Positions 1,062 to 15,269 of a DNA stretch of 64,000 nucleotides are shown here, one piece after another. The notes below the pieces were generated by a model. It did not search any database. It had not been told where the DNA came from and worked only from the letters and a program-made list of their open reading frames with translations. The DNA lies in contig JAJFKT010000012.1 of assembly GCA_021773075.1 (NCBI GenBank), positions 248,001 through 312,000 on the forward strand, given 5' to 3'. The translations under genes were made by a program, and so were the position numbers. The number at the start of each line of letters is the position of its first letter. The first letter of the stretch is position 1. The DNA comes from Woeseiaceae bacterium. GTDB taxonomy: Bacteria; Pseudomonadota; Gammaproteobacteria; Steroidobacterales; Woeseiaceae.

Positions 1062-2798
1062 TCACCAGCCACCGCCTCCACCACCGCCGCCGCCGCCACC
1101 CGACGAACCGCCGCCTCCGCCGCCTGACGACGACCCGGGTGCAGCAACTGACGAGCTGACGGCAGAGTTCAGTCCGCTGGAAAGGCTATTGGTCGTCTTG
1201 GACAAATTTGAAGAACTCCACTTGCCGTCGTACCACGATGGACTGTATGAGTCGCCATTCGGTTCCCTGATCGCCGCTAATACACTGGCAAATCGTTCAG
1301 ACCACTCCTGATCGACCCCCAACGCCAATGCAAATGGCAGGTATGCCTCGAATAATTGCGGTGTCTTCTCGGGCGGATTTCGAAGATTGAGTTCTTCCTT
1401 CTCGGCGATTTCAAGATAGTCTTTAAAGCCGAGCATTTCGTCGAGTAATTGTCGGCCACGCATCGTCGGTCGTTTCATGATGATCGCGAAGAAGATCATT
1501 ATTAGAAACATTGCTATGACTGTTGCAATGACCATGACCGTCGGACCACTTCCCATAGACAGGGCGAGCCCAGTGGCAAGCAGAACGATTACGATTGCCG
1601 GAATATTTAGTGCACCATTCGTTCGAAAGTATTTTTGCTTGTAATCATTCTGCAGAGACGCTCGATGATCGGCACGCGCCTTGCCGAGCAATTCATGATT
1701 GAAGTCTTTTAGCGTCACCACGTCGTCTTCCTTGAACAAGGCAGCTAACAACTCCTGCTCTCCGGGCGCGAGCCGAAAATCAAGCGGGGTCTGACCCCTT
1801 TTCGGACCCCTTTTCGAATCAAGTGGGGTCTGACTCCTTTTGAGAGAGTGAGTGCCGCCCTTGGTCTTGATCTCGAGGTAACCCTTGACCGCCAGGTTAA
1901 CGATGGCAGCAGTCATTACTTTGTCGTCGTAATACATCTGCCGGATATAACGTAATGATGCGGGCGAAAAGTTTTCCGGCGGTTCGTAGCGAGTAACGAT
2001 GACACCTTCTTCCGGATCCTTGCCCTGTTTTCGCCAAACGGGTAGGTAATACGCAAGTAGCAATATCAAACCGATAACGGCGATAAGAAGATTGCGGTTG
2101 TCTTTCATAACCCAGCCAATCCGCCGCATCGCGCTCGGCTCCACGACGAACCCCTTTGGCCAGCCAACGACAATGGTGAGCCCATGCGCTGATGGCAAGG
2201 AATTGTTGGCGACAAAATGAACTGCGCCCGCCTCGTCGAGAAATCGCCCGTACTCCTGGGCCTTCGAGCCGGCGCGGCCGGTGTAGCCTTCAACCATGAG
2301 CGCATTACGAGGTGCGTCAAATTGCAAGGTGACAGTCGCACTCGCCTTGTCAATCGGAAATACCCAGCGGCTACCGGTCACGTCCCAGTAAAGCTCGTCA
2401 TGCTCCTCGAAAAAACCGAGCATTCTGTTGGCACTGTAGCGATAGGTGTAGGTGTGAATACCGTTCTCGATAAATCGATCCGAGCGACCGAAATAGGTGC
2501 GGATATCACGCCCGCTACGCACCGTCTTAAATGCTTCCGGCATCTCGTTTCGAAGTACGGTCTGTGGCCCAATCCTTATCCTGTAGTTGTTACCCAGTCG
2601 GTCTTCGTATTCCACCGGAAAGTCGCGATAAATGCCGCGGCGGATCTGCTTGCCCTCGGCACGAACCTGTATCGTTTCCGTGACGTCGATCGTGCCATCA
2701 GGATAGACACGAATATCGCTGTGAAAACTCAGAATACGTTCGTCAGCAAAAGCCGCCGTCGACAAGAGCAACGACAAAACCAGGATTAGTTTTTTCAT
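1062..2798 (-). CDS. DUF2207 membrane protein with Gly-rich tail
   Basis: 578 residues. It begins with a cleavable signal peptide (MKKLILVLSLLLSTAAFA), followed by an exported beta-rich DUF2207 domain (about 20-215). A membrane helix follows near 237-255, then a cytoplasmic region, two more helices near 395-440, a helical region, and a tail of Ser/Gly ending in a run of glycines. DUF2207 proteins commonly pair with LemA, and the start codon here overlaps the lemA stop (ATGA), so the two are translationally coupled. Function is unknown; envelope stress or membrane remodelling is only a guess. Odd point: around residues 320-340 the sequence KRxQTPLD occurs twice because two copies of a 25-base palindromic repeat sit in frame (see repeat). 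Homologues lacking this stretch would confirm an insertion. Confidence 0.88.
   Translation of the reverse strand: MKKLILVLSLLLSTAAFADERILSFHSDIRVYPDGTIDVTETIQVRAEGKQIRRGIYRDFPVEYEDRLGNNYRIRIGPQTVLRNEMPEAFKTVRSGRDIRTYFGRSDRFIENGIHTYTYRYSANRMLGFFEEHDELYWDVTGSRWVFPIDKASATVTLQFDAPRNALMVEGYTGRAGSKAQEYGRFLDEAGAVHFVANNSLPSAHGLTIVVGWPKGFVVEPSAMRRIGWVMKDNRNLLIAVIGLILLLAYYLPVWRKQGKDPEEGVIVTRYEPPENFSPASLRYIRQMYYDDKVMTAAIVNLAVKGYLEIKTKGGTHSLKRSQTPLDSKRGPKRGQTPLDFRLAPGEQELLAALFKEDDVVTLKDFNHELLGKARADHRASLQNDYKQKYFRTNGALNIPAIVIVLLATGLALSMGSGPTVMVIATVIAMFLIMIFFAIIMKRPTMRGRQLLDEMLGFKDYLEIAEKEELNLRNPPEKTPQLFEAYLPFALALGVDQEWSERFASVLAAIREPNGDSYSPSWYDGKWSSSNLSKTTNSLSSGLNSAVSSSVAAPGSSSGGGGGGSSGGGGGGGGGGGW
1778..1841. 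repeat. Duplicated REP-like palindromic repeat inside a CDS
   Basis: Two near-identical 25-base copies, 1778-1802 and 1817-1841, differ at two C/T positions and are built around the palindrome GGGGTCTGACCCC. The spacer also carries a half-site (GGACCCCTTTT). Both copies lie in frame in the DUF2207 gene and are translated as KRxQTPLD. Short GGGGTCAGACCCC-type palindromes are scattered in several gammaproteobacterial genomes and are thought to be REP-like elements moved by Y1 (RAYT) transposases. No such transposase is in this window, so the class is inferred. Confidence 0.7.
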
Positions 2799-3355
2799 TC
2801 GACGCTGCCCAACTTTACCAAAGGCACATTCGCGGCTTCGTCTGAGGTTTTCTGAAAGAATTCTTTTTGTTCGAAGCCGAACCAGTTTGCAACAAGGTTA
2901 CTTGGAACAACATCTGTCAGTGTGTTGTAGTCGCGTACGGAGCCATTGTAGTAACGTCGCGCGAACTGTAGATAGTTTTCAGTTTCGACCAGTTCACTCT
3001 GCAAACCAAGGAAATTCTGATTGGCTTTAAGGTCCGGATAACTTTCCGCGAGAGCAATGATGCGCCCGACACCAACGCTGAGTTTTTCCTCAAGCTTTCC
3101 CCGGGCCTGAACATCGGCCACCCGCATTGCTTCGCCACGAAGCGCCGTGACGGCTTCGAGCGTTGCACGCTCATACTGTGCGTATTGATCGACCGCTGTT
3201 ACGAGCCTGGGTATCAGGTCATGACGACGTTGTAGTTGGACGTCGATATCACTCCATGCAGTAGCGACACGATTACGACCACCGACGAGGCGGTTGTACA
3301 TCACGACACCTGCTCCCAGGATTAATAGCAAGACAACAAAGACGACCGTCATCAT
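2795..3355 (-). CDS. LemA family protein
   Basis: About 186 residues with one N-terminal membrane helix (VVFVVLLLILGAGVVMYNRLV), then the alpha-helical LemA domain. Typical phrases are visible: TAWSDIDVQLQRRHDLIPRL, then QSELVETENYLQFARRYYNG and YNTLTDVVPSNLVA. LemA proteins are small membrane-anchored helical-bundle proteins whose molecular role is still unclear. The ORF track starts at a GTG at 3361. The ATG at 3355 is given here, with GGAG lying 4 bases before the GTG and 10 before the ATG, so both remain possible. It is the first gene of the LemA-DUF2207-rhomboid operon and overlaps DUF2207 by four bases. Confidence 0.93.
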   Translation of the reverse strand: MMTVVFVVLLLILGAGVVMYNRLVGGRNRVATAWSDIDVQLQRRHDLIPRLVTAVDQYAQYERATLEAVTALRGEAMRVADVQARGKLEEKLSVGVGRIIALAESYPDLKANQNFLGLQSELVETENYLQFARRYYNGSVRDYNTLTDVVPSNLVANWFGFEQKEFFQKTSDEAANVPLVKLGSVE

Positions 3356-3437
3356 ATGCACGTGACTCCGTTTTCACCGGAGCACATCGTATCATTGAAG
3401 GCGCGACCAGCGGCCGCGATCGCGTGGGATTCCCTGG

Positions 3438-4580
3438 CTAATACCAGAAAGAGAAGAAGATCTGAAAGACACTTGCGTCGAGTTGGTAAAGCGGCTCACT
3501 ACCGATCGGCGCGAGTGGCCTCAGGTCCGTGAAGTTGTCGTAGTCGATCTCGAGTAGATGCACCGACGCCGAAACCGATCCTTTCTTAATAAAGCCCCAG
3601 TCATTGCCGTTGTCGCTCAGGAATTCGTAGGTGGTTTTCAGCTTGAACGTATAACTCGTCAGATCGCTGAGCTCTTTGTCACGAGCGCGGAAATTGGTTG
3701 CTTCCGAGCGCGAAAACAGGTCGCTATAAAAATCTGCGCCGGTCTGCGTGTGATAACGGAATTTTCCCGTGAAGGTGAAGTCGCCCCACGGATGGATATA
3801 GGTCAGCGAGCCCGTATTTCCCTCTATGCCCCAGGTATCGACATAGAAGCGATACTCGCCCTCTATTGCCGCCCGGTAGGGCAGATAGTATCGGGCCCGA
3901 AGTCCAACTGCATTGCTGGTTTTCGTATTCGGATAAAGCTCCGGCTCAAAACTGTAGCCAAGCGCACTGCCTGAATCGGCATATCGAACCGAGCGGTACG
4001 GATTGTTGAGAAAACCCTCGTCAGTGATCGTCTCAACATTTAGCGTGGTGATTAAGTTCTTGGTCAGGATCTGCGTGATGCCGACGCTGTACATCTGTTT
4101 GTCGAGCTTGCGCTCAAACGTCGGATCGTCAGAGCGGCGCACCAAATCATCGCCCAAAGCGTAACCCAGCGTCAGTGTCGTCAGGTCACCAAACATGTCC
4201 TGGCTAACAGAAAAACTAAATGTTTCGGCGTCGTAATCGGATTCTTCACTACTCACATAGTTGATACGCATCGTGGTATTGCCACGCAGATAGTCCGCGC
4301 CCAGTGACCATTGCGTGCGCTCTTCAGTGTAGGGGCTCGCCGTCGTCACCACATCGATCGACGCAGAGGTGACCATATCGACATAGTAATTGCCGACCAC
4401 CGACACGCTTTTTCCGACTTTTTTTCGAACCAGAATCGACGGGCCGTCAATCTCAACGCCGCCACCGTCGTATAGGTGATACAGGACATCGGTTCGATCC
4501 TCGGGCAACACCCCTGCAACAGCAGATCCGGCCATCGCCAGAAGCAAGCTAATTAGGGATATGCGTCGAAACATCATCAC
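3438..4580 (-). CDS. DUF3570 outer-membrane beta-barrel protein
   Basis: 380 residues. A signal peptide (residues 1-22, ending GSAVAG) is followed by LPEDRTDVLYHLYDGGGVEI, the typical DUF3570 opening. A long series of alternating amphipathic strands then ends in FQIFFSFWY, an aromatic C-terminus suited to Bam recognition. The predicted location is the outer membrane. DUF3570 has no assigned function; from memory it often sits next to a DUF4266 lipoprotein, a TlpA-like thioredoxin and ApbE. Here the DUF4266 gene is 8 bases upstream, but no ApbE or thioredoxin gene is adjacent. It is the last gene of the leftward five-gene run that starts with the HzsA-like lipoprotein. Confidence 0.87.
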   Translation of the reverse strand: MMMFRRISLISLLLAMAGSAVAGVLPEDRTDVLYHLYDGGGVEIDGPSILVRKKVGKSVSVVGNYYVDMVTSASIDVVTTASPYTEERTQWSLGADYLRGNTTMRINYVSSEESDYDAETFSFSVSQDMFGDLTTLTLGYALGDDLVRRSDDPTFERKLDKQMYSVGITQILTKNLITTLNVETITDEGFLNNPYRSVRYADSGSALGYSFEPELYPNTKTSNAVGLRARYYLPYRAAIEGEYRFYVDTWGIEGNTGSLTYIHPWGDFTFTGKFRYHTQTGADFYSDLFSRSEATNFRARDKELSDLTSYTFKLKTTYEFLSDNGNDWGFIKKGSVSASVHLLEIDYDNFTDLRPLAPIGSEPLYQLDASVFQIFFSFWY

Positions 4581-4588
4581 AAACGTCT

Positions 4589-4831
4589 CTAGTTACAACC
4601 GCAGCCGCCGCCAGCGCCGCCTTCACCGCCACGCGCACCTTCACGAGCCTCATAGACGTGCTGAATATAGGACGTCGACACCGCATCGGCATCCAGCGCC
4701 ATGATCGGATCGGCCAGCCTGTCGCGCTCGTAGGGTTTTACCCATGGCTCAATCGGGCCACACGCGGACAGTCCGCCAAGCGTCAGTGCCAGCAGCAAAA
4801 CTCGTCCAGTTGATCGAATATTCATTGTCAT
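4589..4831 (-). CDS. DUF4266 small Cys/Gly-tailed lipoprotein
   Basis: 80 residues. The lipoprotein signal peptide ends with lipobox LSAC at about residue 24, so the mature chain has only about 56 residues. The core PWVKPYERDRLADPIMALD is the DUF4266 signature. The chain closes with a Gly-rich stretch ending GGCGCN, which provides two cysteines one residue apart. The start has AGGA five bases upstream. Such a short acylated chain could be a metal- or thiol-carrying partner of the DUF3570 barrel encoded just downstream; that is inference from the paired cysteines and constant co-occurrence, with no biochemical support known to me. Confidence 0.88.
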   Translation of the reverse strand: MTMNIRSTGRVLLLALTLGGLSACGPIEPWVKPYERDRLADPIMALDADAVSTSYIQHVYEAREGARGGEGGAGGGCGCN

Positions 4832-4878
4832 AATTCCTACTTTAGCGCCACTGTCCGTTTCGATATGTGACCGCTGCC

Positions 4879-5559
4879 TCAGAAGAACACCGTAAGCCCG
4901 ATATGACCCTCAAGATTGTGAGCTGTCTTCTCTTCGCCAAGAATATCGATGTCAAACAGATGGTCGCGGAAATCAAGGTGCAGCGCGATCGAATCGTTTA
5001 GCAAAAAGCGATAGCCAGCACCAACGTTGACTGAGAAGCGGTCATCACCCGCGAAACGCGTCGACCCCAATCCCGCAATCAGATACAGATTCGTATTAAA
5101 CGCGCGACCTTCGCCAATAAACACTTCGCCCGGTAAAATGTTGTAGCCGAGACTCAGGTTGTAATACGTCATCTGTCGTTCGCTTTCGGTGATCAAACTA
5201 GCACCACCGGACAGAATCTCAAAACTCGTCAATCCACCATCCGATTGACCAACAGTGCCTTCAACGAAGAAACCTTCCGTGATGTGGTAGGCCAGACGCA
5301 CGCCATAAGACACGTTAGAACCGAAGTCCTCAATACTCATGACGCCAACGTAGCCACCGATTTCGAAGTCTTCACGATCGATATCCGGCTCTTTGATCTC
5401 GCGCCGTTCAACCTCAGGATCAATCACCTGACCTGGTGGTTCAGCCGACGGAGGCGGCGCCTCGTCCCGGCCAAAACCGAAAAGATTTTTTGTTGCGGCA
5501 CAGCCCGACAGGCCAAGAATCGCAACAACTAGAAAAAGAACGCGAAACCGACTTTCCAT
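4879..5559 (-). CDS. Outer-membrane beta-barrel lipoprotein
   Basis: 226 residues. A lipoprotein signal peptide ends with LSGC (Cys20). A short, charged, proline-rich linker (EAPPPSAEPPGQ...) leads into an eight-strand-like beta-barrel domain from about residue 65 to the C-terminal HIGLTVFF, whose last residue is aromatic. Features such as YNLSLGYNILPGEVFIGEGR resemble the small outer-membrane barrel domain seen in myxobacterial and gammaproteobacterial proteins. The start overlaps the 3' end of the upstream SH3-barrel gene by 31 bases, which indicates co-transcription. The upstream product has a comparable barrel, so the two may be paralogous structural partners. Confidence 0.75.
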   Translation of the reverse strand: MESRFRVLFLVVAILGLSGCAATKNLFGFGRDEAPPPSAEPPGQVIDPEVERREIKEPDIDREDFEIGGYVGVMSIEDFGSNVSYGVRLAYHITEGFFVEGTVGQSDGGLTSFEILSGGASLITESERQMTYYNLSLGYNILPGEVFIGEGRAFNTNLYLIAGLGSTRFAGDDRFSVNVGAGYRFLLNDSIALHLDFRDHLFDIDILGEEKTAHNLEGHIGLTVFF

Positions 5560-6407
5560 TCTTCTACTTCCTCATTTTCATCACGGCTCGTGAAAACCAC
5601 GTAGCTCTTGTATTCCGCCCGCAACAGGAATCGTCGCGTTGCATAAATCCTGAATCCGCCACCAACATGTCCGATCTGATCAGTGCGGTCCTCGCCCTGG
5701 ACGATCGTCGATTTAGGCTCTGTGCGTATGACACCGGCCCCCAAGGTAAAAAATGGCGACACGCGCCACTCTGGAAATGCTTCGTGAACCAGGTTCACGC
5801 TGCCCATCCAACCATTCGAGAAATTTCCAAGGATTCGTGAGCCCCAAAGCTCGACCGAAACGTTGGGATTTAGCGAATAGCCTCCATACAAGGAAACGAT
5901 ATTCGCACCGCCGAAATCGCCCGCGAGAACGCCGAGTTCCCACTTGGCATTTGTAAGATCTTCGAGACTTACATCATCAAAACTGGTTGGACTTCCATCG
6001 GGCTGTAGCGTTAGCTCCATTTGCGAACGCGCGACCCAGCCTTCTTTGCCGTTGACGGCACGCACGAGATACCACTCGGTACGCTGTTTTAGTACCTCTA
6101 CGAACTCGCCACGATCAACGACATTGAAGATTGGGTAACCACGGCCGGGACCCGTATGCATTTCCAGGTAGGGATCGGCGACGGTTACAGAGCGATACTC
6201 ATCGGCAGCCTGGGCCGACGCTGCCAGAAAAATCTGCAGTACGACGGCAACCAGGCATCCTAGCCACAGGGCCTTAGTTAGCTGGGGCGTCGAAGGGATT
6301 GTTGTAATACTGGGCTCCGATATCCACCCATTCCGCGATGAGACGAAGCTCCGCTTTGGATAAAGTATTGAAGTGAGTAAGATCGTTTGGGTTGCTAAAT
6401 CTGTCAA
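5529..6407 (-). CDS. Bacterial SH3 domain plus outer-membrane barrel protein
   Basis: The secreted chain starts after a signal peptide (LVAVVLQIFLAASAQA|ADEY). It has a bacterial SH3 domain (about residues 70-130 of the ORF; PYLEMHTGPGRGYPIFNVV is the typical RT-loop region). A small beta-barrel follows (about 150-292), ending WKVGFAFFF. The SH3 part may bind peptidoglycan, the barrel the outer membrane. Start problem: the ORF-track start is a TTG at 6407, 134 bases inside the upstream gene. Between the upstream stop (6274-6276) and the signal peptide there is no ATG, GTG or TTG in frame, so initiation uses either the overlapping TTG or a rare codon such as the CTG before WLGCLVAV. Confidence 0.75.
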   Translation of the reverse strand: MTDLATQTILLTSILYPKRSFVSSRNGWISEPSITTIPSTPQLTKALWLGCLVAVVLQIFLAASAQAADEYRSVTVADPYLEMHTGPGRGYPIFNVVDRGEFVEVLKQRTEWYLVRAVNGKEGWVARSQMELTLQPDGSPTSFDDVSLEDLTNAKWELGVLAGDFGGANIVSLYGGYSLNPNVSVELWGSRILGNFSNGWMGSVNLVHEAFPEWRVSPFFTLGAGVIRTEPKSTIVQGEDRTDQIGHVGGGFRIYATRRFLLRAEYKSYVVFTSRDENEEVEEWKVGFAFFF

Positions 6408-9075
6408 AAAAGTCGCTCGACGCCCTTGCGCTGCCCGCTATTGCCGACGGTGCGAAGGGTATATTTTCAACGATGTCGACTCCATTCGCATCCTGACCAA
6501 TCACCCGCGTTGCATCTACAAGCATACCGCCAACGTCCAATACCTGAAGATTATCAGTAACTAACAGCTCGCGATAGGCGTTCTCGTGATCAGCTTCGTC
6601 TAGCGAAGGGCCGTCCGCCAGATCTAGCTGCCCCGCCGGTACCCTCGGTGCCGCGTTCGCAGGATCGATCGGCGTATGGCATTGCAAGCAGTTGTTGCTA
6701 ACCTGGGCGCCATTGGCATCGAGCACTGGTATTTCCGGAGTAGAGGGATCATTGTCGTCGTCAAAAGTGACCAGGCGCGGTGCGTTCCAAAGTGGATGAA
6801 TCACGTCTAAATAATTGATCATGATGCGACATCGCCATTGCCAATCCTGCTGACAGGAAAGCGATGTCGGCGCGCCCGTGGTCAGGTCACGATACAGATA
6901 GTCAAAACCGGCGTTCACAGGATTAACCGGCTGACAGGTCACAGGATCAACCGAAGTTGCGCCCCAAACATCACGATAAATTACGTCCATCGATGGCTCG
7001 ACCGAGGTACAAGGCGTTCCGTTTGTCAGTTCCGCGCGAACCTCGGCCATCGTGTCGCCCACATCACCAACAAAATACTGTGGGTTGGAATTCGGGAAGG
7101 ACACGCCAGCGGTCGGTGCGCCGGCATAGGCGCTATCAAACGCATCGAAGCGGCCGTGCGACACACCGCTATTGGCATCATGACAGCCGTTGCATTTTAG
7201 CTCCTGGCCAGCAGCTACTGATATCCAGTTTTGGTGTCGTTGCGTGATCTGCATCGCGTTCTCGTCAACGATGCTGAGCATCAACGCCGCATTCGCCGGC
7301 ACTTTGGTAATGACAGAGCCGTCAGGTTCAATCATCGCGTAGCCCACGATTTCCTTCATACCAAATTGTGTTGTTACGCCAAATGCTGTGTTATCTATGT
7401 CCCGAATATCGTCGTTCGGTTGCGAGACCGCCTTCTCGATTCTCAAAAAACGCGCCGGACGATCTGCTGCCAGAGTCAAAAGCGGGTCGGCCAATACCAT
7501 CGGATCTATGCCGGGCAGAAACGCACCGTCAAAGTCATAGACGTTGCGTATGTTCAGTACGCCTTCGCCGACATCACCCAGTGTTGAATCGAGCGAGAAA
7601 TCATTGAGGCCATCCTGAAGGACAGGTGGCACCGGTCGCGGATCAGCCGACACAACCTCGGTGAACATGAAGCCTTCTTCGCCGGCCACGATGGGTAACT
7701 GAGTATCTTCTCTCGGATCGTAAATCCAGATACCGTATAACGGCTGAGCGACCAAAAAGTCACCAGGAGCCGGCGTCGGCGGATTTTGATCCGCAGGGTC
7801 GACGAACAGGAAGTTCAAGAGGTTGTCATCGGTACAAGCGACAATTCGCTCATCGAGGGTGTTCGCATCGCCATCATCCGGCAAGATTTCTCTCAGGCGG
7901 CACTGACTCCAGCTAACCATCAAACGGCCCGTACCGTCCTGAATCGGATAAACGGAAGAGTAACGTCCACCTATCGATGGCATGCCAGGCACAGTTGATA
8001 CCTGGTTTATAGTGGCATCTTCCTGCGCCGGTCCGGACAGAACACCAATATTGTCTTTAGTCGGCTGCGTATTTTCGAGATATTGCGGCGTATCTATAAG
8101 AATCAGCTCGCCGCCACCTTCCGTGTCGGTAAACGGGCGTGCCAGTATCATAATGCGTCCGTCGTCAATCTGACGAGGCTGCATGAACTGAATCGTTTCG
8201 CCGTTCGCACCCGTGTCATGACTCTGCTGTCCGTAGAGCAGTTCGTGGTTCGATCCATCGGGGTTCATTCGATACAGGTTCACGGCATCATTTGTTTGAT
8301 TGTGATCCCAGCGACTGTAGACGATTTGTCCGTTGGCAAGCACTGACGGATCAAGGTCGTGACTTTGGTTGAAAGTGACTTGCTTCAGGTTGCTGCCGTC
8401 ATCGTTCATGACGTGAATATTAAACGCAAACTCGTTGTCGTCCTCGTCTTGCGCCGGGAAACCACCCTTGCCCTCATCGAGCAACAGTCCCTGTGACTGC
8501 GTCTGACGCGTGGAAGAAAATACGATTCGACCGTCCGGCAAGTACTTCGGCATAATGTCATGACCAATTTCGGCGGTCAGCGGTGACGAAATAACTCGAA
8601 TCAACTCATCTGTTTCGAACGTGTATTGCCAGATATTCCAGGTTGCGACCTGATCTTCGATGTCGACGCCGGGTTCAAATGGCATTCGCATTGAGAACAA
8701 CAGGCGGCTACCGTCATAATCGATTTCGACGTCGCGAATCCCTGCCAGTCCGTTCGACACGCGTTCTGTAATATTGACAGGCAAAGCTCCGACCGCGGCG
8801 CGATCGCGAAAGAATAGATCAGCGCCGAATTCGAAAGTGATTTGCTCCCGCAGATCTTGCTGCTGGAATATACCGTTGTCATCGGTGGGCAGCGGAGACT
8901 TTATATAGGCGATCGGAAAATCAATCACCACAGGGTCAGGCGTCTGGCCATTTCCCAGCTGCACGCCATCACCCTTGCTGCAAGCAGCAATTGAAATACT
9001 CACCATAGACAACACGACCATCCTGGTCAGTTTTCTGGCAAATCCATTTTTAGTTTGTTGCGATAGCTTGTACAT
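6274..9075 (-). CDS. HzsA-like propeller lipoprotein with two CxxCH haem motifs
   Basis: About 933 residues. The signal peptide has lipobox IAAC. Residues about 90-330 carry WD40-like/PD40 propeller repeats (DYDGSRLLFSMR, LPDGRIVFSSTR, ANGQIVYSRWD). Two c-type haem motifs follow: CNGCH (about 628-632) and CLQCH (about 796-800). The C-terminal FNTLSKAELRLIAEWVDIGAQYYNN is a typical end for haem-bearing surface proteins. The layout resembles the hydrazine synthase alpha (HzsA)-related proteins that are widespread outside anammox bacteria and have unknown substrates. The ORF track starts at GTG 9084; ATG 9075 is preferred because AAGGTGAG lies just upstream. It heads a leftward run of five envelope genes and is divergent from three further envelope genes. 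Confidence 0.72.
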   Translation of the reverse strand: MYKLSQQTKNGFARKLTRMVVLSMVSISIAACSKGDGVQLGNGQTPDPVVIDFPIAYIKSPLPTDDNGIFQQQDLREQITFEFGADLFFRDRAAVGALPVNITERVSNGLAGIRDVEIDYDGSRLLFSMRMPFEPGVDIEDQVATWNIWQYTFETDELIRVISSPLTAEIGHDIMPKYLPDGRIVFSSTRQTQSQGLLLDEGKGGFPAQDEDDNEFAFNIHVMNDDGSNLKQVTFNQSHDLDPSVLANGQIVYSRWDHNQTNDAVNLYRMNPDGSNHELLYGQQSHDTGANGETIQFMQPRQIDDGRIMILARPFTDTEGGGELILIDTPQYLENTQPTKDNIGVLSGPAQEDATINQVSTVPGMPSIGGRYSSVYPIQDGTGRLMVSWSQCRLREILPDDGDANTLDERIVACTDDNLLNFLFVDPADQNPPTPAPGDFLVAQPLYGIWIYDPREDTQLPIVAGEEGFMFTEVVSADPRPVPPVLQDGLNDFSLDSTLGDVGEGVLNIRNVYDFDGAFLPGIDPMVLADPLLTLAADRPARFLRIEKAVSQPNDDIRDIDNTAFGVTTQFGMKEIVGYAMIEPDGSVITKVPANAALMLSIVDENAMQITQRHQNWISVAAGQELKCNGCHDANSGVSHGRFDAFDSAYAGAPTAGVSFPNSNPQYFVGDVGDTMAEVRAELTNGTPCTSVEPSMDVIYRDVWGATSVDPVTCQPVNPVNAGFDYLYRDLTTGAPTSLSCQQDWQWRCRIMINYLDVIHPLWNAPRLVTFDDDNDPSTPEIPVLDANGAQVSNNCLQCHTPIDPANAAPRVPAGQLDLADGPSLDEADHENAYRELLVTDNLQVLDVGGMLVDATRVIGQDANGVDIVENIPFAPSAIAGSARASSDFFDRFSNPNDLTHFNTLSKAELRLIAEWVDIGAQYYNNPFDAPAN

Positions 9076-9723
9076 AGCTCTCACCTTAAGTCTCTTGGGA
9101 GGTTACGCTGTATTGCCGCACCCTTACCGTTAACGCGTTCACAGTGTCGAATTATACGAGAGACGAATAAGCCGATGTAATGTCTCAAATGCACGACACC
9201 CACTATATGCTAAACAGTACTTTTCGCCGCCTGGTCTTTACACGCTTGAGAATCGGATAACGTTCCCAGCAGAAAATTAGCGCAAAAAAAATCGTCCTTT
9301 TTTCGCCACAGTGAGAATCCGCTTTAGCTTTGCTCTGTTGAGCGTTGTTGTTTGGATGTGTCGAACCCGGTCACCCCTGTCTCTCATCGGAGACAGTTGC
9401 ACAAGTCTTCACAATCAATAACTTAAACGTTCTGGTCATAAAGTCTGTGCGAAACAGCCGACAGTCACTTGACATATCCTCACTTCGGTTTATGCGTACA
9501 CCATCGTCGTAAGTTTATGTTTTATAAGATTTTTTATAGCTAGTTTCAGCGCTGCGTCAAGACTGGCACAGCACTTGCTTTAGTGATTACACATCATCTG
9601 AATTCGCGAAGTTCGGGCACAGGAATTTCAAGGACTGTGAGTGCATTCACGGTGACGGGGCAAAGAGTCTGGCAATATTTGGCGGCCGGGCTCAAACGAA
9701 TAACTACTGATGAGCAGATCGAT
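9076..9723. other. Long divergent intergenic region
   Basis: About 650 bases between the divergent HzsA-like and CxxCH genes. It is AT-richer than the flanks. A consensus -35-like hexamer TTGACA lies at 9469-9474, facing right, but no convincing -10 sits at the right distance. AT-rich candidates (TTTTATAAGATT) lie near 9521-9540. An inverted A/T run (GCGCAAAAAAAA ... TTTTTTCGCC, 9280-9307) could form a weak hairpin. It probably carries both promoters of the envelope locus; no gene is seen. Confidence 0.5.
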
Positions 9724-10974
9724 ATGAATAACAAGATATGGACAAAACTCATGGACGACGTTTTAAGAATCATGTCTCGCTTTGCATTGGCAGGACTGCT
9801 TGCAGCAGCACTTGTAGCACCGGCGAATGCGGGCGACAGTGAAAAGGCAAAACGCATTCACGACCGTTTGGCCGGCGTTCCCCCGACAGCTATTGTGCTG
9901 CAGGAAATGGAAGATGCTCTCGCTGGCACCAATCCGGAGTGTTCGAATTTCACTCTGTCTGGTATCGACAATGGTGCGGAATGTGCGGCCTATATAGCAA
10001 TGAAGAATAAGGACTTCTACAACGTGACGTTGAAGAATTTCGCGGCTACCTGGACCAACCGTGACCAGTCAGTTTTTGTTCCTTTAAATGACTATATCGC
10101 CACAGTCATTGGCATGGTCCGCGACGACGAGCCGTTTAACGAGCTGTTGTCCCGCGACATTACTTACGTTGGTCGCCCGGGTGTTGTCTCAACAGCACCA
10201 TCAGGGAGCAACAACGATCACTATCAGCAACTTGAAGACAACAATGTAAACCTGCGCGACGAGCTACAGTTTAGTCTGCAGTCTCAGGTTAACAATCTGC
10301 CAGCGAATGCGACCGCCGGCGTGTTGACGTCACGAGCGGCATCCGAGTCGTTCTTTGTCGCCGGCACGAACCGCGCGATGTTCCGATTCACCATGCTGAA
10401 TCATTTCTGCAACGATATGGAGCAACTGCACGATCCGGCATTAACGCCCGATCGCATCCGCCAGGATGTAAGCCGCAGCCCGGGTGGCGACAGCCGCCTG
10501 TTCCTGAATAACTGCATCGGCTGCCATACGGGCATGGACCCTATGACGCAGGCGTTCGCTTACTACAATTACGACGAGAACACGGGTGCTCTGCAATATA
10601 CCGACGGTGTAGTTCAAGCGAAGTATTTCAACAACGATCTGAATTTCCCGCAGGGCTACAGAACGCCGGATGATCATTGGGATAACTACTGGCGTAGCGG
10701 TCAGAATGCCTATCTTGGCTTCGATAATGCGCTCCCGGGTTCCGGAGACGGTGCAAAGTCTCTCGGCGCTGAGCTCGGCAATAGCGACGCATTTGCCGTT
10801 TGTCAGGTAAAGAAAGTATTCAAGGCGGTTTGTCTTCGCGATCCCGACATCGGCGATCTGGTCGACGCGGGCGACAGTAACGCGGTTAGCCGAATTACAA
10901 ACACATTCAAGACCACCGGATATCGGTTGAAGCAGGTTTTCGCCGATACCGCTGTTCACTGCATGGGCCAGTAG
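9724..10974 (+). CDS. Secreted CxxCH protein, DUF1588/DUF1585-like
   Basis: 416 residues from ATG 9724. The ORF track extends to a GTG at 9583 without a plausible leader; another in-frame ATG is at 9772. A signal peptide ends APANA|GDSE. The chain is mostly helical up to a single haem-type motif CIGCH (Cys264, His268) followed by TGMDPMTQAFAYYNYDENTG. That phrase mirrors the CxxCH-xxIDP-FALENFD pattern of the DUF1588/DUF1585 parts of planctomycete-type cytochrome proteins. It stands first in a three-gene rightward operon, 6 bases before the LamG lipoprotein gene. A cytochrome-like redox or structural role in the periplasm is inferred; no substrate can be read. Similarity is at motif level only. 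Confidence 0.65.
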   Translation: MNNKIWTKLMDDVLRIMSRFALAGLLAAALVAPANAGDSEKAKRIHDRLAGVPPTAIVLQEMEDALAGTNPECSNFTLSGIDNGAECAAYIAMKNKDFYNVTLKNFAATWTNRDQSVFVPLNDYIATVIGMVRDDEPFNELLSRDITYVGRPGVVSTAPSGSNNDHYQQLEDNNVNLRDELQFSLQSQVNNLPANATAGVLTSRAASESFFVAGTNRAMFRFTMLNHFCNDMEQLHDPALTPDRIRQDVSRSPGGDSRLFLNNCIGCHTGMDPMTQAFAYYNYDENTGALQYTDGVVQAKYFNNDLNFPQGYRTPDDHWDNYWRSGQNAYLGFDNALPGSGDGAKSLGAELGNSDAFAVCQVKKVFKAVCLRDPDIGDLVDAGDSNAVSRITNTFKTTGYRLKQVFADTAVHCMGQ

Positions 10975-10980
10975 GGAGAC

Positions 10981-13626
10981 ATGATAATGAATAAAGCAAT
11001 CGGAATTGCTGCCCGGGCCCAAGACTTGGGATCACTGCGCACTCTTGCTGTGGCAGTATTTGCCAGCACGCTTCTCGCCGCTTGTGGCGGGGGTGCTGCA
11101 ACAACTGACAACCCTCAATCGCAGGCACCCGGTAACGGCAACGATTCAGCGTATACCGGACCCGCCGCAGAAACACCGGAAATCCTCAAGTTTCAACAGG
11201 AGTTCTGGTCGAATGCCAAGACCAGCAATCGATGCGGCAGCTGCCATAACGAGACTGTCGGCCAGCTGCCGATGTTCGTCCGCAATGACAATGTCAACGA
11301 GGCCTATGCTGCTGCGATCACCGTTGTCGATCAGGGTCAGCCTGGCTTGTCGCGGGTAGTTGAAAAGGTCGGCTCTATGACTGAACGGCATAACTGCTGG
11401 GTCGAAGATCCCGGTGTGTGTGGCACGATCATGACGACCTGGATTGAAAACTGGGTGGGCGACACGGCCGGTGGTGGGCGTGACATCGTCCTAACGCCGC
11501 CGCAATCTCAAAACCCCGCAGACAGCAAGAACTTTCCGGCGACTTCCGATTCGTTCCAGCAATTGGTCTACACGCCGATCCTCGAGCGTTACTGCCAGGG
11601 CTGCCACAGCTCCGAGTCTGCAACCGCACAGCAACCCTATTTTGCCGATCCTGATATAGACGGTGCCTATGAGGCGGCCAAGTCAAAAATTAACCTCGAC
11701 TCGCCAGTCGATTCTCGCTTCGTCATCAAGGTAAGTTCGAATCCCGCGAGATCAGGTGAGTCGCACAACTGCTGGAACAATGATTGCGTAACTGCCGAGG
11801 CAGAAATGCTCGCGGCCTTAACCGCATTTGCCAATGGCATTAGTGCGACGGTGGTCGATCCTAACTTGCTCACCAGTAAGGCGATTCGTCTTATTGACGG
11901 TACATTGGCTTCCGGCGGCAATCGCTACGAAGACGCGCAGATTGCACTCTGGGAATTCCAGACCGGAAACGGCTTGACAGCCTTCGACACCAGTGGCGTC
12001 GATCCCGCGATAGATCTGAATTTCTCTGGCGATGTCAGTTGGTTTGGCGGTTGGGGCATCAGTATTGGTGCGAACGCCGCGCAAGGCCCGGGTAAAGCCC
12101 AGGCCTCGACTATTGCCAGTTCCAAGCTGCATGAGGTACTGCAGGAATCGGGCGAGTTCTCAGTTGAGGCATGGGTCGTTCCGGCCAACGTAACCCAGGA
12201 AATGGCGCAGATCATCAGCTATTCAGCAGGTCCGACGGCGCGCAACTTTGCTGTGCAGCAAACCTTGTACGATTACGACTTCCTGTTGCGGCACAATGCA
12301 GTTGACGGCAACGGCGCACCACTGATGGGACTGGACGGAGACCCCGCGCATTCCACACCATCAATGGATGAGATTTTGCAGGCTACCTTGCAGCACGTGG
12401 TTGCAACTTACGACCCGATTAACGGCCGAAGCATTTACGTTAATGGCGTACTGGTCACCAACGCGGACCCGATACCGGGTGGTACGCTGATTGACTGGCA
12501 GAACAACTTTGCCGTGATTCTTGGTAACGAAGCATCAAGTGACGGCTTGTGGGAAGGTACGTTCCGCCTGGCCGCAGTTCACCGCCGCGCTTTGACTCTG
12601 GAACAAATCACGCAGAACCTTGACGCAGGCGTCGGCGAGCGTTTCTTCATGCTGTTCGATGTTTCGGAGCGCATTGGCGCGCCGGTAGATACATCGTTCG
12701 TATTGTTCGAAGCACAGCAATTCGACAGCTTTGCATACCTGTTCGACAAGCCACATTTCGTAACACTGGACGGCGTCGACAGGGATGGTGTTGATATCAA
12801 GGGCCTGCATCTGGCGATGAACGGTCAGGAAGTCAACGTGGGCCAGTCGTACGCGAACATGGACGAGACGACCGATTCGACCCTGAACGCCGAACTTGGT
12901 CAGCCGCTGTCCGTTCTTGGGGCGGTCATTCCGCTCGAGAAAGGACCCGAAGACGACCAGTTCTTCCTGACCTTCGACGACATCAACGGCACCGTGTATA
13001 ACCGTCCGGCGAATCCGACCTTGGTTGTTTCACCAACGGATCTTGTCGACGCATCGAGAATTGGTATACGGACCTTCGATGAAATCGATGCGACCTACGC
13101 AGCGGTTCTCGGCGTTGATCGACTGATGGTGTACACGGCGAATGGCGTCACCACTGATCATGTCAATGAGACATTCCAGGAGCTCAGGCAATCACTGCCT
13201 GCCATTGAGGACGTTAATACGTTCCTGTCGTCGCACCAGGTCGCCATCGCTCAGCTCGCGATTCAATATTGCGATGCAGCGATCGGCAGCAACGCAAACC
13301 CGAACCCGAATGCTGAGAGTGTTGTCTGGACATCGTTTGACTTCGATCAAGCCGCGGGCACGGCGTTTAGTGTCGCCAATCGCAGCAATTTCGTCGATCC
13401 TTTGATCGCAAGAGCGGTCGGTCAGGTTCCGAGCTCCGCACAGCTGTTGTCACAACCGACTTATACGAGTGTTTACGACGAGGTTGCAGCGGCCACTTCA
13501 GTTCCGAATGGCCGACCCGACAACCTTATTAAAAGGCTACTCGACGCAAACGCCAGTGACACGCGCGCAATTGCCAAGGGTGTATGTGCCTCCGTACTCG
13601 GAAGCGCGGCCACTCTGGTTCAGTAA
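10981..13626 (+). CDS. LamG lipoprotein with two CxxCH/HNCW modules
   Basis: 881 residues. Lipobox LLAACGG near residue 35. Two tandem modules follow: CGSCH (85-89) with HNCW (137-140), then CQGCH (205-209) with HNCW (262-265). Each module also has a phrase of the type NEAYAAA/DGAYEAA between the motifs and one further Cys after HNCW, so the modules look like a duplication. Residues about 385-545 form a concanavalin-like LamG domain (FSVEAWVVPANV, HVVATYDPINGRSIYVNGVL). The C-terminal third is unassigned. The start has a strong GGGAG six bases after the upstream stop. The product is predicted to be a lipid-anchored di-haem protein with a glycan- or protein-binding sandwich domain, working with the flanking genes. 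Confidence 0.72.
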   Translation: MIMNKAIGIAARAQDLGSLRTLAVAVFASTLLAACGGGAATTDNPQSQAPGNGNDSAYTGPAAETPEILKFQQEFWSNAKTSNRCGSCHNETVGQLPMFVRNDNVNEAYAAAITVVDQGQPGLSRVVEKVGSMTERHNCWVEDPGVCGTIMTTWIENWVGDTAGGGRDIVLTPPQSQNPADSKNFPATSDSFQQLVYTPILERYCQGCHSSESATAQQPYFADPDIDGAYEAAKSKINLDSPVDSRFVIKVSSNPARSGESHNCWNNDCVTAEAEMLAALTAFANGISATVVDPNLLTSKAIRLIDGTLASGGNRYEDAQIALWEFQTGNGLTAFDTSGVDPAIDLNFSGDVSWFGGWGISIGANAAQGPGKAQASTIASSKLHEVLQESGEFSVEAWVVPANVTQEMAQIISYSAGPTARNFAVQQTLYDYDFLLRHNAVDGNGAPLMGLDGDPAHSTPSMDEILQATLQHVVATYDPINGRSIYVNGVLVTNADPIPGGTLIDWQNNFAVILGNEASSDGLWEGTFRLAAVHRRALTLEQITQNLDAGVGERFFMLFDVSERIGAPVDTSFVLFEAQQFDSFAYLFDKPHFVTLDGVDRDGVDIKGLHLAMNGQEVNVGQSYANMDETTDSTLNAELGQPLSVLGAVIPLEKGPEDDQFFLTFDDINGTVYNRPANPTLVVSPTDLVDASRIGIRTFDEIDATYAAVLGVDRLMVYTANGVTTDHVNETFQELRQSLPAIEDVNTFLSSHQVAIAQLAIQYCDAAIGSNANPNPNAESVVWTSFDFDQAAGTAFSVANRSNFVDPLIARAVGQVPSSAQLLSQPTYTSVYDEVAAATSVPNGRPDNLIKRLLDANASDTRAIAKGVCASVLGSAATLVQ

Positions 13627-13652
13627 CAGACAGGACTTAAAGGAAGAATAAG

Positions 13653-15269
13653 ATGACTAAGAGACGAAATGCACGGCACTGGGATGCGCCGCAGCTTCAT
13701 GGAGATCATCCGCGTCCTGTCACGCGACGTGAATTCGTAGCGCAGGGCTTTATGTCCGGCGCTGCCTACACGGTCGGTGCGGGCGCTTTGAGTATGTTGC
13801 CAGCAAGCGCGCTGGGGGATTTGTCACCAGACATCGACGATCTGCGTCTGAACACCTGTCAAATCACTGACGGTGCGGGCAAGATTCCGTTCATCTGCTT
13901 TGACCTCGCCGGTGGCGCGAACATCTCGAACTCCAATGTATTGGTCGGCCAGTCAGGCGGTCAGAACGACTTCCTGAGCACAGCAGGCTACGACAAAATG
14001 GGACTCCCCGGCGATGCCGTGCCTGGCCTCAATGACGCGAACGGTAATCCTTTTGCGAACTTCGACCTCGGCCTTGGCTTCCATTTTGACAGTGCATTTC
14101 GCCGCGGCATGCTAGCGAGTATGACTCCGGGAACGGAGTTAAACGTGAACGGCGCTGTAATTCCGGCACGTTCGGACAACGATACGGGTAACAACCCGCA
14201 CAATCCGATGTACGGAATTGCACTGGCTGGTGCAAAAGGATCGATCTTGACGCTCACCGGTTCCGAGAATTCGGACTCTGGGGGTAACTCAATGTTACCG
14301 GCCATGCTCTACGATCCGGAATTACGTCCGACCAAAGTTGATCGTCCCAGTGACGTAGTCAATCTGGTCGACACAGGCGATCTTGTGGGGATTCTTTCGA
14401 AAGCAGACGCCACAGCGGTGATGGAGTCTATTTATCGACTCAGTGAGGCCAAGATGGGCCGCGTCAGTACGCAGATTTCCGCCGATGCCGCGATCAAGCA
14501 GGCCGTGAATTGCGGTTACGTAAAGGCCGCGCATATCGCCGAAGCCTTTGGTGGCGTGCCTATTGATCCAGCCCTCGATACCGATATCGTCGCAGATGAT
14601 GGGTCCGCAATCTTCACAACTGCCGAATTTACCGACGGTAGCCGTAGCGCACGCGAGTTCCAGAAAACAGCATCGGTCATGAAGCTGGTTATGAACGGAT
14701 TCGCAGGCGCAGGCTGTGTGGAAATGGGCGGCTACGATTATCATGGCGGTGCCCGAGCCGAAGGTGAGGTCAAAGACTTTCGTGCCGGACGCTGTATGGG
14801 CGCAGTACTTGAGTATGCAGCACGCCTTGGAAAACCGGTGATGATGTACGTTTTCAGTGACGGATCAGTGTCCTCGAACGGCGTTATCGATAATTCTACT
14901 GATGGCCGCGGCAAGGGCGAATGGGCGAGTGACAACTCGTCGACCGCTGCAGCGTTCTTCCTCGTCTACAACCCGACTCGGAGACCGGTACTTCTCGGCG
15001 GCACGCCGGATCAACAGGCGCTGCACCAACAAATTGGTGCGATGGATGCTGGCGGCTCGGTTATGCGCGCGGCAACTCCGATGGCGAACAACGTCAATCT
15101 GCTGGTTAACTCTGTCATCCTGAATTACATGGCACTGCATGGCGAACAGGGCAACTTCGCGAATCTATTGTCGCCGAACTGGAACCATGGCCTCGGCAGC
15201 GGCGGTCAGCTGGATGCCTACACAGCGTTCGAACCGATCGTGAGCGGGACGATCGCTACTCCTGTCTAG
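13653..15269 (+). CDS. DUF1501-like secreted protein with Tat-type leader
   Basis: 538 residues. The N-terminus has TRREFVAQGF followed by a hydrophobic Ala/Gly-rich stretch ending SALG, resembling a Tat leader although it starts about 25 residues in. The body has the layout of DUF1501 proteins of the alkaline-phosphatase superfamily: an early FDLAGGANISNSNVLVG strand and a later GGYDYHGGARAEGEV, the counterpart of the GGWDTHxNN motif. PVMMYVFSDGSVSSNG then replaces the usual SEFGR strand. DUF1501 proteins usually accompany DUF1592/1588/1585 cytochrome proteins, and here the partner roles are taken by the two upstream genes. The start has AAAGGAAG nearby; a terminator follows the stop. Confidence 0.7.
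   Translation: MTKRRNARHWDAPQLHGDHPRPVTRREFVAQGFMSGAAYTVGAGALSMLPASALGDLSPDIDDLRLNTCQITDGAGKIPFICFDLAGGANISNSNVLVGQSGGQNDFLSTAGYDKMGLPGDAVPGLNDANGNPFANFDLGLGFHFDSAFRRGMLASMTPGTELNVNGAVIPARSDNDTGNNPHNPMYGIALAGAKGSILTLTGSENSDSGGNSMLPAMLYDPELRPTKVDRPSDVVNLVDTGDLVGILSKADATAVMESIYRLSEAKMGRVSTQISADAAIKQAVNCGYVKAAHIAEAFGGVPIDPALDTDIVADDGSAIFTTAEFTDGSRSAREFQKTASVMKLVMNGFAGAGCVEMGGYDYHGGARAEGEVKDFRAGRCMGAVLEYAARLGKPVMMYVFSDGSVSSNGVIDNSTDGRGKGEWASDNSSTAAAFFLVYNPTRRPVLLGGTPDQQALHQQIGAMDAGGSVMRAATPMANNVNLLVNSVILNYMALHGEQGNFANLLSPNWNHGLGSGGQLDAYTAFEPIVSGTIATPV

Follow-up and report, generated by a model that had tools for sequence, protein, structure and literature searches.

What could bring CxxCH lipoproteins, outer-membrane barrels and a predicted flavin carrier together in a single divergent locus? 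The question is raised by eight genes, here called A to H, at positions 3438-15269 of a stretch of 64,000 nucleotides (contig JAJFKT010000012.1, positions 248,001 to 312,000; hereafter the window) from a Woeseiaceae-like gammaproteobacterium. A sequence-only reading had marked the interval 6274-15269 as an envelope locus and had suggested an undescribed redox or polymer-processing machine of the outer membrane or surface. The locus is real, and its gene coordinates and most of the descriptions given to its products are correct; the interval was drawn too short, as the conserved unit also takes in A (DUF3570) and B (DUF4266) at 3438-4831. It is also more than a chance grouping, since five CxxCH motifs are kept in every homologue while the identity of E drops to only ~38-50% in more remote loci. 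Outside the view of that reading lay a flavinylation system (DUF3570, DUF4266, thioredoxin and ApbE) and a proton motor of the Agl-Glt type. A to H is the redox half of a conserved cluster of ~19 genes in marine gammaproteobacteria, and together with the motor half it very probably forms one functional system.

Conservation and linkage of the two halves

The gene H has been found in 43 of 60 relatives, and a scan with each species represented by one genome has yielded at least 551 relatives of its product. The best 80 of these are mostly from gammaproteobacteria, with some metagenome-assembled genomes (MAGs) labelled only proteobacteria and one labelled Rhodospirillaceae. Most of the nearest among them are Woeseiaceae, and Microbulbifer, Aliiglaciecola, Glaciecola, Porticoccus and Sedimenticola, in which the gene order is unchanged, have been found as well. 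The carriers include named strains and not only MAGs (Microbulbifer flavimaris, Aliiglaciecola lipolytica, Glaciecola sp., Porticoccus sp.). All 20 loci compared, which represent seven families of the order, have A to H in co-linear arrangement, apart from the contig ends that cut off A and B in two of them (L042, L049). The sequence-only reading had staked its case on a neighbourhood conserved in other genomes, and this is what has been found, in the seven families of the order and also in Alteromonadaceae, Microbulbifer, Porticoccus and Sedimenticola. Counted only over homologues with letters at the site (81-94 sequences per motif), the CxxCH motifs are invariant: 81/81 and 81/81 in E, 91/91 in F, 93/93 and 94/94 in G.

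The full gene set comprises an outer-membrane side (E, the barrels C and D, F, G and H), a thiol and flavin side (a TlpA-like thioredoxin, DUF4266, DUF3570 and ApbE) and a motor side. The last has one ExbB and two ExbD, a GltG/GltJ-like TonB protein, two tetratricopeptide-repeat (TPR) proteins, a lipoprotein with TPR, a protein X and a further small protein. The Woeseiaceae, and with them the window's genome, have the system split in two; in several other lineages nearly all of it stands in one divergent locus. Thus in genome G040 (L047, L064) the operon continues with ApbE, X (~180 amino acids), the long TPR proteins Y and Z, the TPR lipoprotein W, the small protein, ExbB, two ExbD and the TonB-like protein. 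The motor genes follow DUF3570/ApbE there and in G050, and they follow H in G124, Microbulbifer and Sedimenticola, where a single divergent cluster results. In the window's genome, ApbE, thioredoxin, X, Y, Z, W, the small protein and ExbB are grouped on another contig (C18), which ends after ExbB, and none of the motor-core genes lies inside the window. Contamination of a draft assembly is not the cause of this split, since a single-contig assembly of the same family (G103, L187) carries the whole set, with ExbB and two ExbD, intact in one stretch.

Co-occurrence points in the same direction. With a strong match to Z defined as E below 1e-100, Z is present in 81/81 genomes with H and in 16/67 without H among 148 genomes of the order (Fisher 7e-26), and in 8/8 with H against 7/341 without H in a sample of the phylum (1e-12), both p-values ignoring shared ancestry. 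By a hand count, H and Z lie within 30 kb of each other on one contig in 29/81 genomes of the order and in 6/7 others of the phylum sample. Mere inheritance of neighbours is countered by the varied arrangements, as the motor genes are found after H, after DUF3570/ApbE or unlinked. The co-linearity of A to H across distant families, the contiguity of thioredoxin, ApbE and motor genes with them in other lineages, and a linkage of H with Z that survives such differences would all be expected of one system.

The predicted identities of the motor proteins fit as well. The AgmX/PglI C-terminal domain is present in the TonB-like protein (NF033768, 2.7e-18, above cut-off), which also matches GltJ (1e-12) and GltG (1.2e-7), both below the equivalog cut-offs. 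In L064, ExbB (PF01618, 2.4e-29) and two ExbD (PF02472, 3.6e-15 and 1.6e-18) have been recognised, and the TPR proteins that W resembles include GltE. A conserved seven-gene Agl-Glt core complex, with one extra gene in gammaproteobacteria, has been described with a function reported as unknown in 2011 (Luciano 2011, PMC3169522). The Agl-Glt/Nfs systems have been described as transport machines, whose core may be a basal transport machinery (PMC3858216). In common with this core, the motor half has, in one operon, one ExbB-like and two ExbD-like proteins, TPR proteins of which one is a lipoprotein, a protein ending in the AgmX/PglI C-terminal domain, and one extra gene. It differs in being tied to haem, flavin and thiol proteins, which is reported in neither PMC3169522 nor PMC3858216.

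Reduced variants of the cluster exist. F, G and H are missing from L181 and L182, where the motor is accompanied by barrels, thioredoxin, DUF3570 and an HzsA-like protein that has three CxxCH, and in L188 (G027, contig C22) and L189 (G046, contig C23) the motor core stands alone. The system is thus layered, with a motor core to which E, the barrels and the thiol and flavin part are added, and then F, G and H. The variant clusters lie on contig C14 of G044 (L181, 2709-6275) and contig C17 of G059 (L182, 16237-19248), and in L181 a 173-amino-acid lipoprotein without a known family follows the HzsA-like gene. The motor core of L188 and L189 is a second, more distant paralogue that lacks the redox genes, its Z being ~41% identical to the main one, and many genomes of the window's genus have both copies.

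The HzsA-like protein E is not a hydrazine synthase

E (6274-9084, reverse strand) is a predicted diheme lipoprotein with a PD40 propeller, an HZS_alpha middle domain (PF18582, 5.9e-14, above cut-off) and a C-terminal cytochrome domain, and it matches hydrazine synthase alpha in the PDB (HzsA; 5c2v_A, 5e-6). Its earlier description as an HzsA-like propeller lipoprotein is thereby borne out. The lipobox Cys is invariant in 81 homologues, the two CxxCH lie at residues 631 and 799, and C395/C417 and C744/C752 form further invariant Cys pairs. Haem sites and domain might suggest that the locus serves anammox-like nitrogen chemistry with E as the synthase, a proposal that is hardly credible. Tyr591, the unusual ligand of haem alphaI, is absent: no Tyr occurs within 8 residues after the CxxCH in 81/81 homologues, in which the His+4 position is S, T, N, Q, A or G. 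On this ground a hydrazine synthase function has been rejected. In addition, no gene for a beta-gamma subunit has been recognised in the cluster. Most carriers of the locus are not known to be anaerobes, which also counts against such a function.

What E does retain, besides propeller, HZS_alpha domain and two CxxCH, is His904, which aligns with chain residue 745 of 5c2v_A, that is His772 (an offset of 27 residues), and is invariant in 81 homologues. HzsA homologues outside anammox bacteria have recently been reported from only a few anaerobes, and in those homologues the distal His772 is reported missing (PMC12758564). E keeps the second CxxCH and, unlike them, the His aligned with His772, and its neighbours do not resemble the alpha/beta-gamma clusters of that study. 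From hydrazine synthase alpha itself E differs in the lost Tyr591, in being a predicted outer-membrane lipoprotein and in its gammaproteobacterial host. Matches to HZS_alpha in marine metagenomes need therefore not signal anammox.

Partners at the outer membrane

Two barrel genes lie with E on the reverse strand. D (5529-6407), whose true start probably lies near 6300, combines an SH3 domain (SH3_3, 6.8e-11) with an outer-membrane barrel (OMP_b-brl, 4.8e-5), and C (4879-5559) is an outer-membrane beta-barrel with an N-terminal lipobox (TIGR04565, OMP_myx_plus, 5.8e-49, above cut-off), in agreement with the barrel and SH3 proteins described before. The C-terminal Phe is kept in 78/79 homologues of C and in 78/82 of D. 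The ~640 bases at 9085-9723 between the divergent genes E and F probably carry their shared control.

On the forward strand, F (annotated open reading frame 9583-10974, real start ~9724-9772) encodes an exported protein with one CxxCH and thus a predicted monohaem protein. A CxxCH-x-x-MDP motif and a C-terminus resembling DUF1585 are common to it and the DUF1592/1588/1585 cytochromes, and in profile comparison it aligns with two members of that group (hhalign 76%, E 2.2e-5) as against at most 1.5% for controls. It falls below every Pfam cut-off, with PSD2/DUF1585 at E 0.07 only, and the predicted structure (mean predicted local distance difference test, pLDDT, 73) has no fold match in the PDB. 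By sequence, F may be a remote relative of the DUF1592/1588/1585 proteins. G (10981-13626) is, as had been described, a LamG-bearing lipoprotein (PF13385, 5.9e-17); its two CxxCH make it a predicted diheme protein. E, F and G thus hold the five CxxCH in three proteins that the earlier reading had counted. Putative c-type haem attachment in them would fit both the invariant motifs and the cytochrome c maturation (ccm) genes of the genome, on whose presence that reading had also depended; homologues of CcmC and CcmF are adjacent on contig C37.

H (13653-15269) is a predicted Tat-exported protein whose twin-arginine signal, [TS]RR, is kept in 99/99 homologues and whose family is unclassified. It had been labelled DUF1501-like, and this label does not hold. 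No Pfam or NCBIfam family, DUF1501 (PF07394) included, matches H at E up to 1, while PF07394 does match other proteins of the window's genome, and the profile of H fails to align with genuine DUF1501 proteins from this genome and related ones (hhalign probability 0.7%). The structural model is poor (mean pLDDT 51); its best PDB matches are mostly of the alkaline-phosphatase superfamily, all at E above 0.1, so that H possibly adopts such a fold. The planctomycete-style pairing of DUF1501 with DUF1588/1585 proteins is hence not established: of the sets that join DUF1501 to DUF1592/1588/1585, the locus has a possible remote relative of the cytochromes in F, below the Pfam cut-offs, and in H a protein that no sequence test assigns to DUF1501.

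Flavin and thiol components

A (3438-4580, reverse strand) is a DUF3570 outer-membrane protein (PF12094, 2e-33) and a predicted flavin carrier, and B (4589-4831, reverse strand) is a small DUF4266 lipoprotein (PF14086, 4.2e-23) whose C-terminal GGGCGCN, with its CXC, is identical across all aligned loci. Families other than that of the window often have a TlpA-like thioredoxin between C and B. All four components of the DUF3570-DUF4266-thioredoxin-ApbE flavinylation system (Meheust 2021, PMC8238504) are present, either in the cluster, as in L047/L064 and L051, or in a second locus of the genome, as for the ApbE and thioredoxin genes on C18. According to that study, DUF3570 proteins are flavinated by ApbE, and flavinylated systems are linked to extracellular electron transfer and iron, with 25 DUF3570 clusters containing the iron transporter VIT1. 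The passages considered here do not mention an HzsA-like partner, partners such as F, G and H, or a motor.

A further difference concerns the flavin sites, published as [ST]GA[ST], which are SSAS/TSAS and TTAS in most members here. In the window's DUF3570, they read TSAS and TTAS (~residues 71-82), and SGAS occurs in only 4/51 homologues at site 1 and only 1/51 at site 2. At both sites the Gly has been lost, and the final Ser is kept in nearly all of the 51 homologues. A tie between this motif loss and the loss of an adjacent ApbE has been rejected, since L047 and L051 have an adjoining ApbE and yet a non-canonical motif.

Proposed mechanism and alternatives

Gene content, conservation, linkage, domain identities and export signals are established at the level of the sequences. 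On this ground, and by analogy, we propose one machine that spans the envelope and is energised by the proton motive force, with the locus as its redox half at the outer membrane. Reducing equivalents in the periplasm would pass from thioredoxin to the thiols of DUF4266 and on to a flavin on the DUF3570 barrel, and from there to c-type haems at the outer membrane, in E, G and F. At this site the electrons would be used in reactions with a substrate, extracellular or bound to the surface, that the LamG, propeller and H domains hold. Through the TPR scaffold, the ExbB/ExbD/TonB-like motor may power conformational work, assembly or surface movement of the complex, as the Agl-Glt/Nfs machines suggest. 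The reported flavination of DUF3570 proteins (PMC8238504) lends this route some support by analogy. As a whole, thiol-flavin-haem electron flow combined with proton-motive-force work on an outer-membrane complex remains tentative, its chance falling somewhat short of even. Several observations weigh against it: five haems spread over three proteins do not readily form a long electron wire, most members have an altered flavin motif, and the motor core also occurs without E to H. As the halves are unlinked in Woeseiaceae, their working together is inferred, and shared ancestry may inflate what the co-occurrence statistics seem to say. The redox role is read from genes, and an unclassified H leaves the chemistry undefined.

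The main rival, in itself unlikely, takes motor, TPR proteins and barrels as a secretion or surface-assembly machine with E, F, G and H as its cargo; thioredoxin, DUF4266 and the flavoprotein would act in maturation, through thiol chemistry that serves disulfides or the attachment of haem, and not in substrate turnover. The transport role described for Agl-Glt/Nfs agrees with this, and the invariant Cys pairs of E could need thiol chemistry; on the other hand, haem attachment is already covered by the ccm operon elsewhere in the genome, and in L181 and L182 the flavin module and an HzsA-like protein accompany the motor even where F, G and H are missing. Extracellular electron transfer or iron reduction, with flavin and haems passing electrons to external metals or acceptors and the motor engaged in TonB-like uptake, is quite unlikely. 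The link of flavinylated systems to such processes and the TonB-like energy coupling speak for it, while neither a multihaem cytochrome nor an MtrB-like conduit nor a TonB-dependent receptor gene has been seen in the cluster, and LamG and H fit poorly.

That two or three independent systems merely travel together, as chance or ancestral neighbours, is improbable: the unlinked motor half of Woeseiaceae and the core-only copies would allow it, and what opposes it is a linkage that persists across families in different arrangements, with no sampled genome carrying H and lacking Z. A gliding or surface-motility engine, suggested by the resemblance of the motor proteins to the Agl-Glt gliding machine of Myxococcus, is highly improbable. 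With the neighbourhood conserved and ccm genes present, an undescribed outer-membrane redox machine is still the best reading, the DUF1501 pairing aside.

Meaning of the combination

As far as the open literature shows, all kinds of parts are known and their combination is new; our search of it, which left subscription papers aside, has found nothing relevant on the cluster as a whole. It is doubtful, though conceivable, that the cluster represents a new kind of envelope machine, in which an Agl-Glt-type motor works on an outer-membrane haem-flavin complex and couples the proton motive force across the periplasm to extracellular redox chemistry. If so, the HzsA fold would be a widespread outer-membrane redox scaffold and not a peculiarity of anammox. 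For the Agl-Glt core complex of gammaproteobacteria (PMC3169522), the locus points to a role that can be tested. It also joins this core, the flavinylation set and the HzsA homologues in marine bacteria, so that three open questions become testable in cultured organisms; as some carriers are named strains, all three can be addressed with a single set of deletions.

Flanking genes

The flanks of A to H in the window hold genes for LemA, DUF2207, rhomboid, methyltransferase and hydrolase proteins. These have been rejected as members of the unit, as most of them vary beyond the genus, and the LemA and DUF2207 genes are lost from the flanks in other families. In the window's genome, each half of the split system has a LemA-family gene beside it (window 2795-3361; L061 5134-5721), which may be the trace of a rearrangement or a coincidence.
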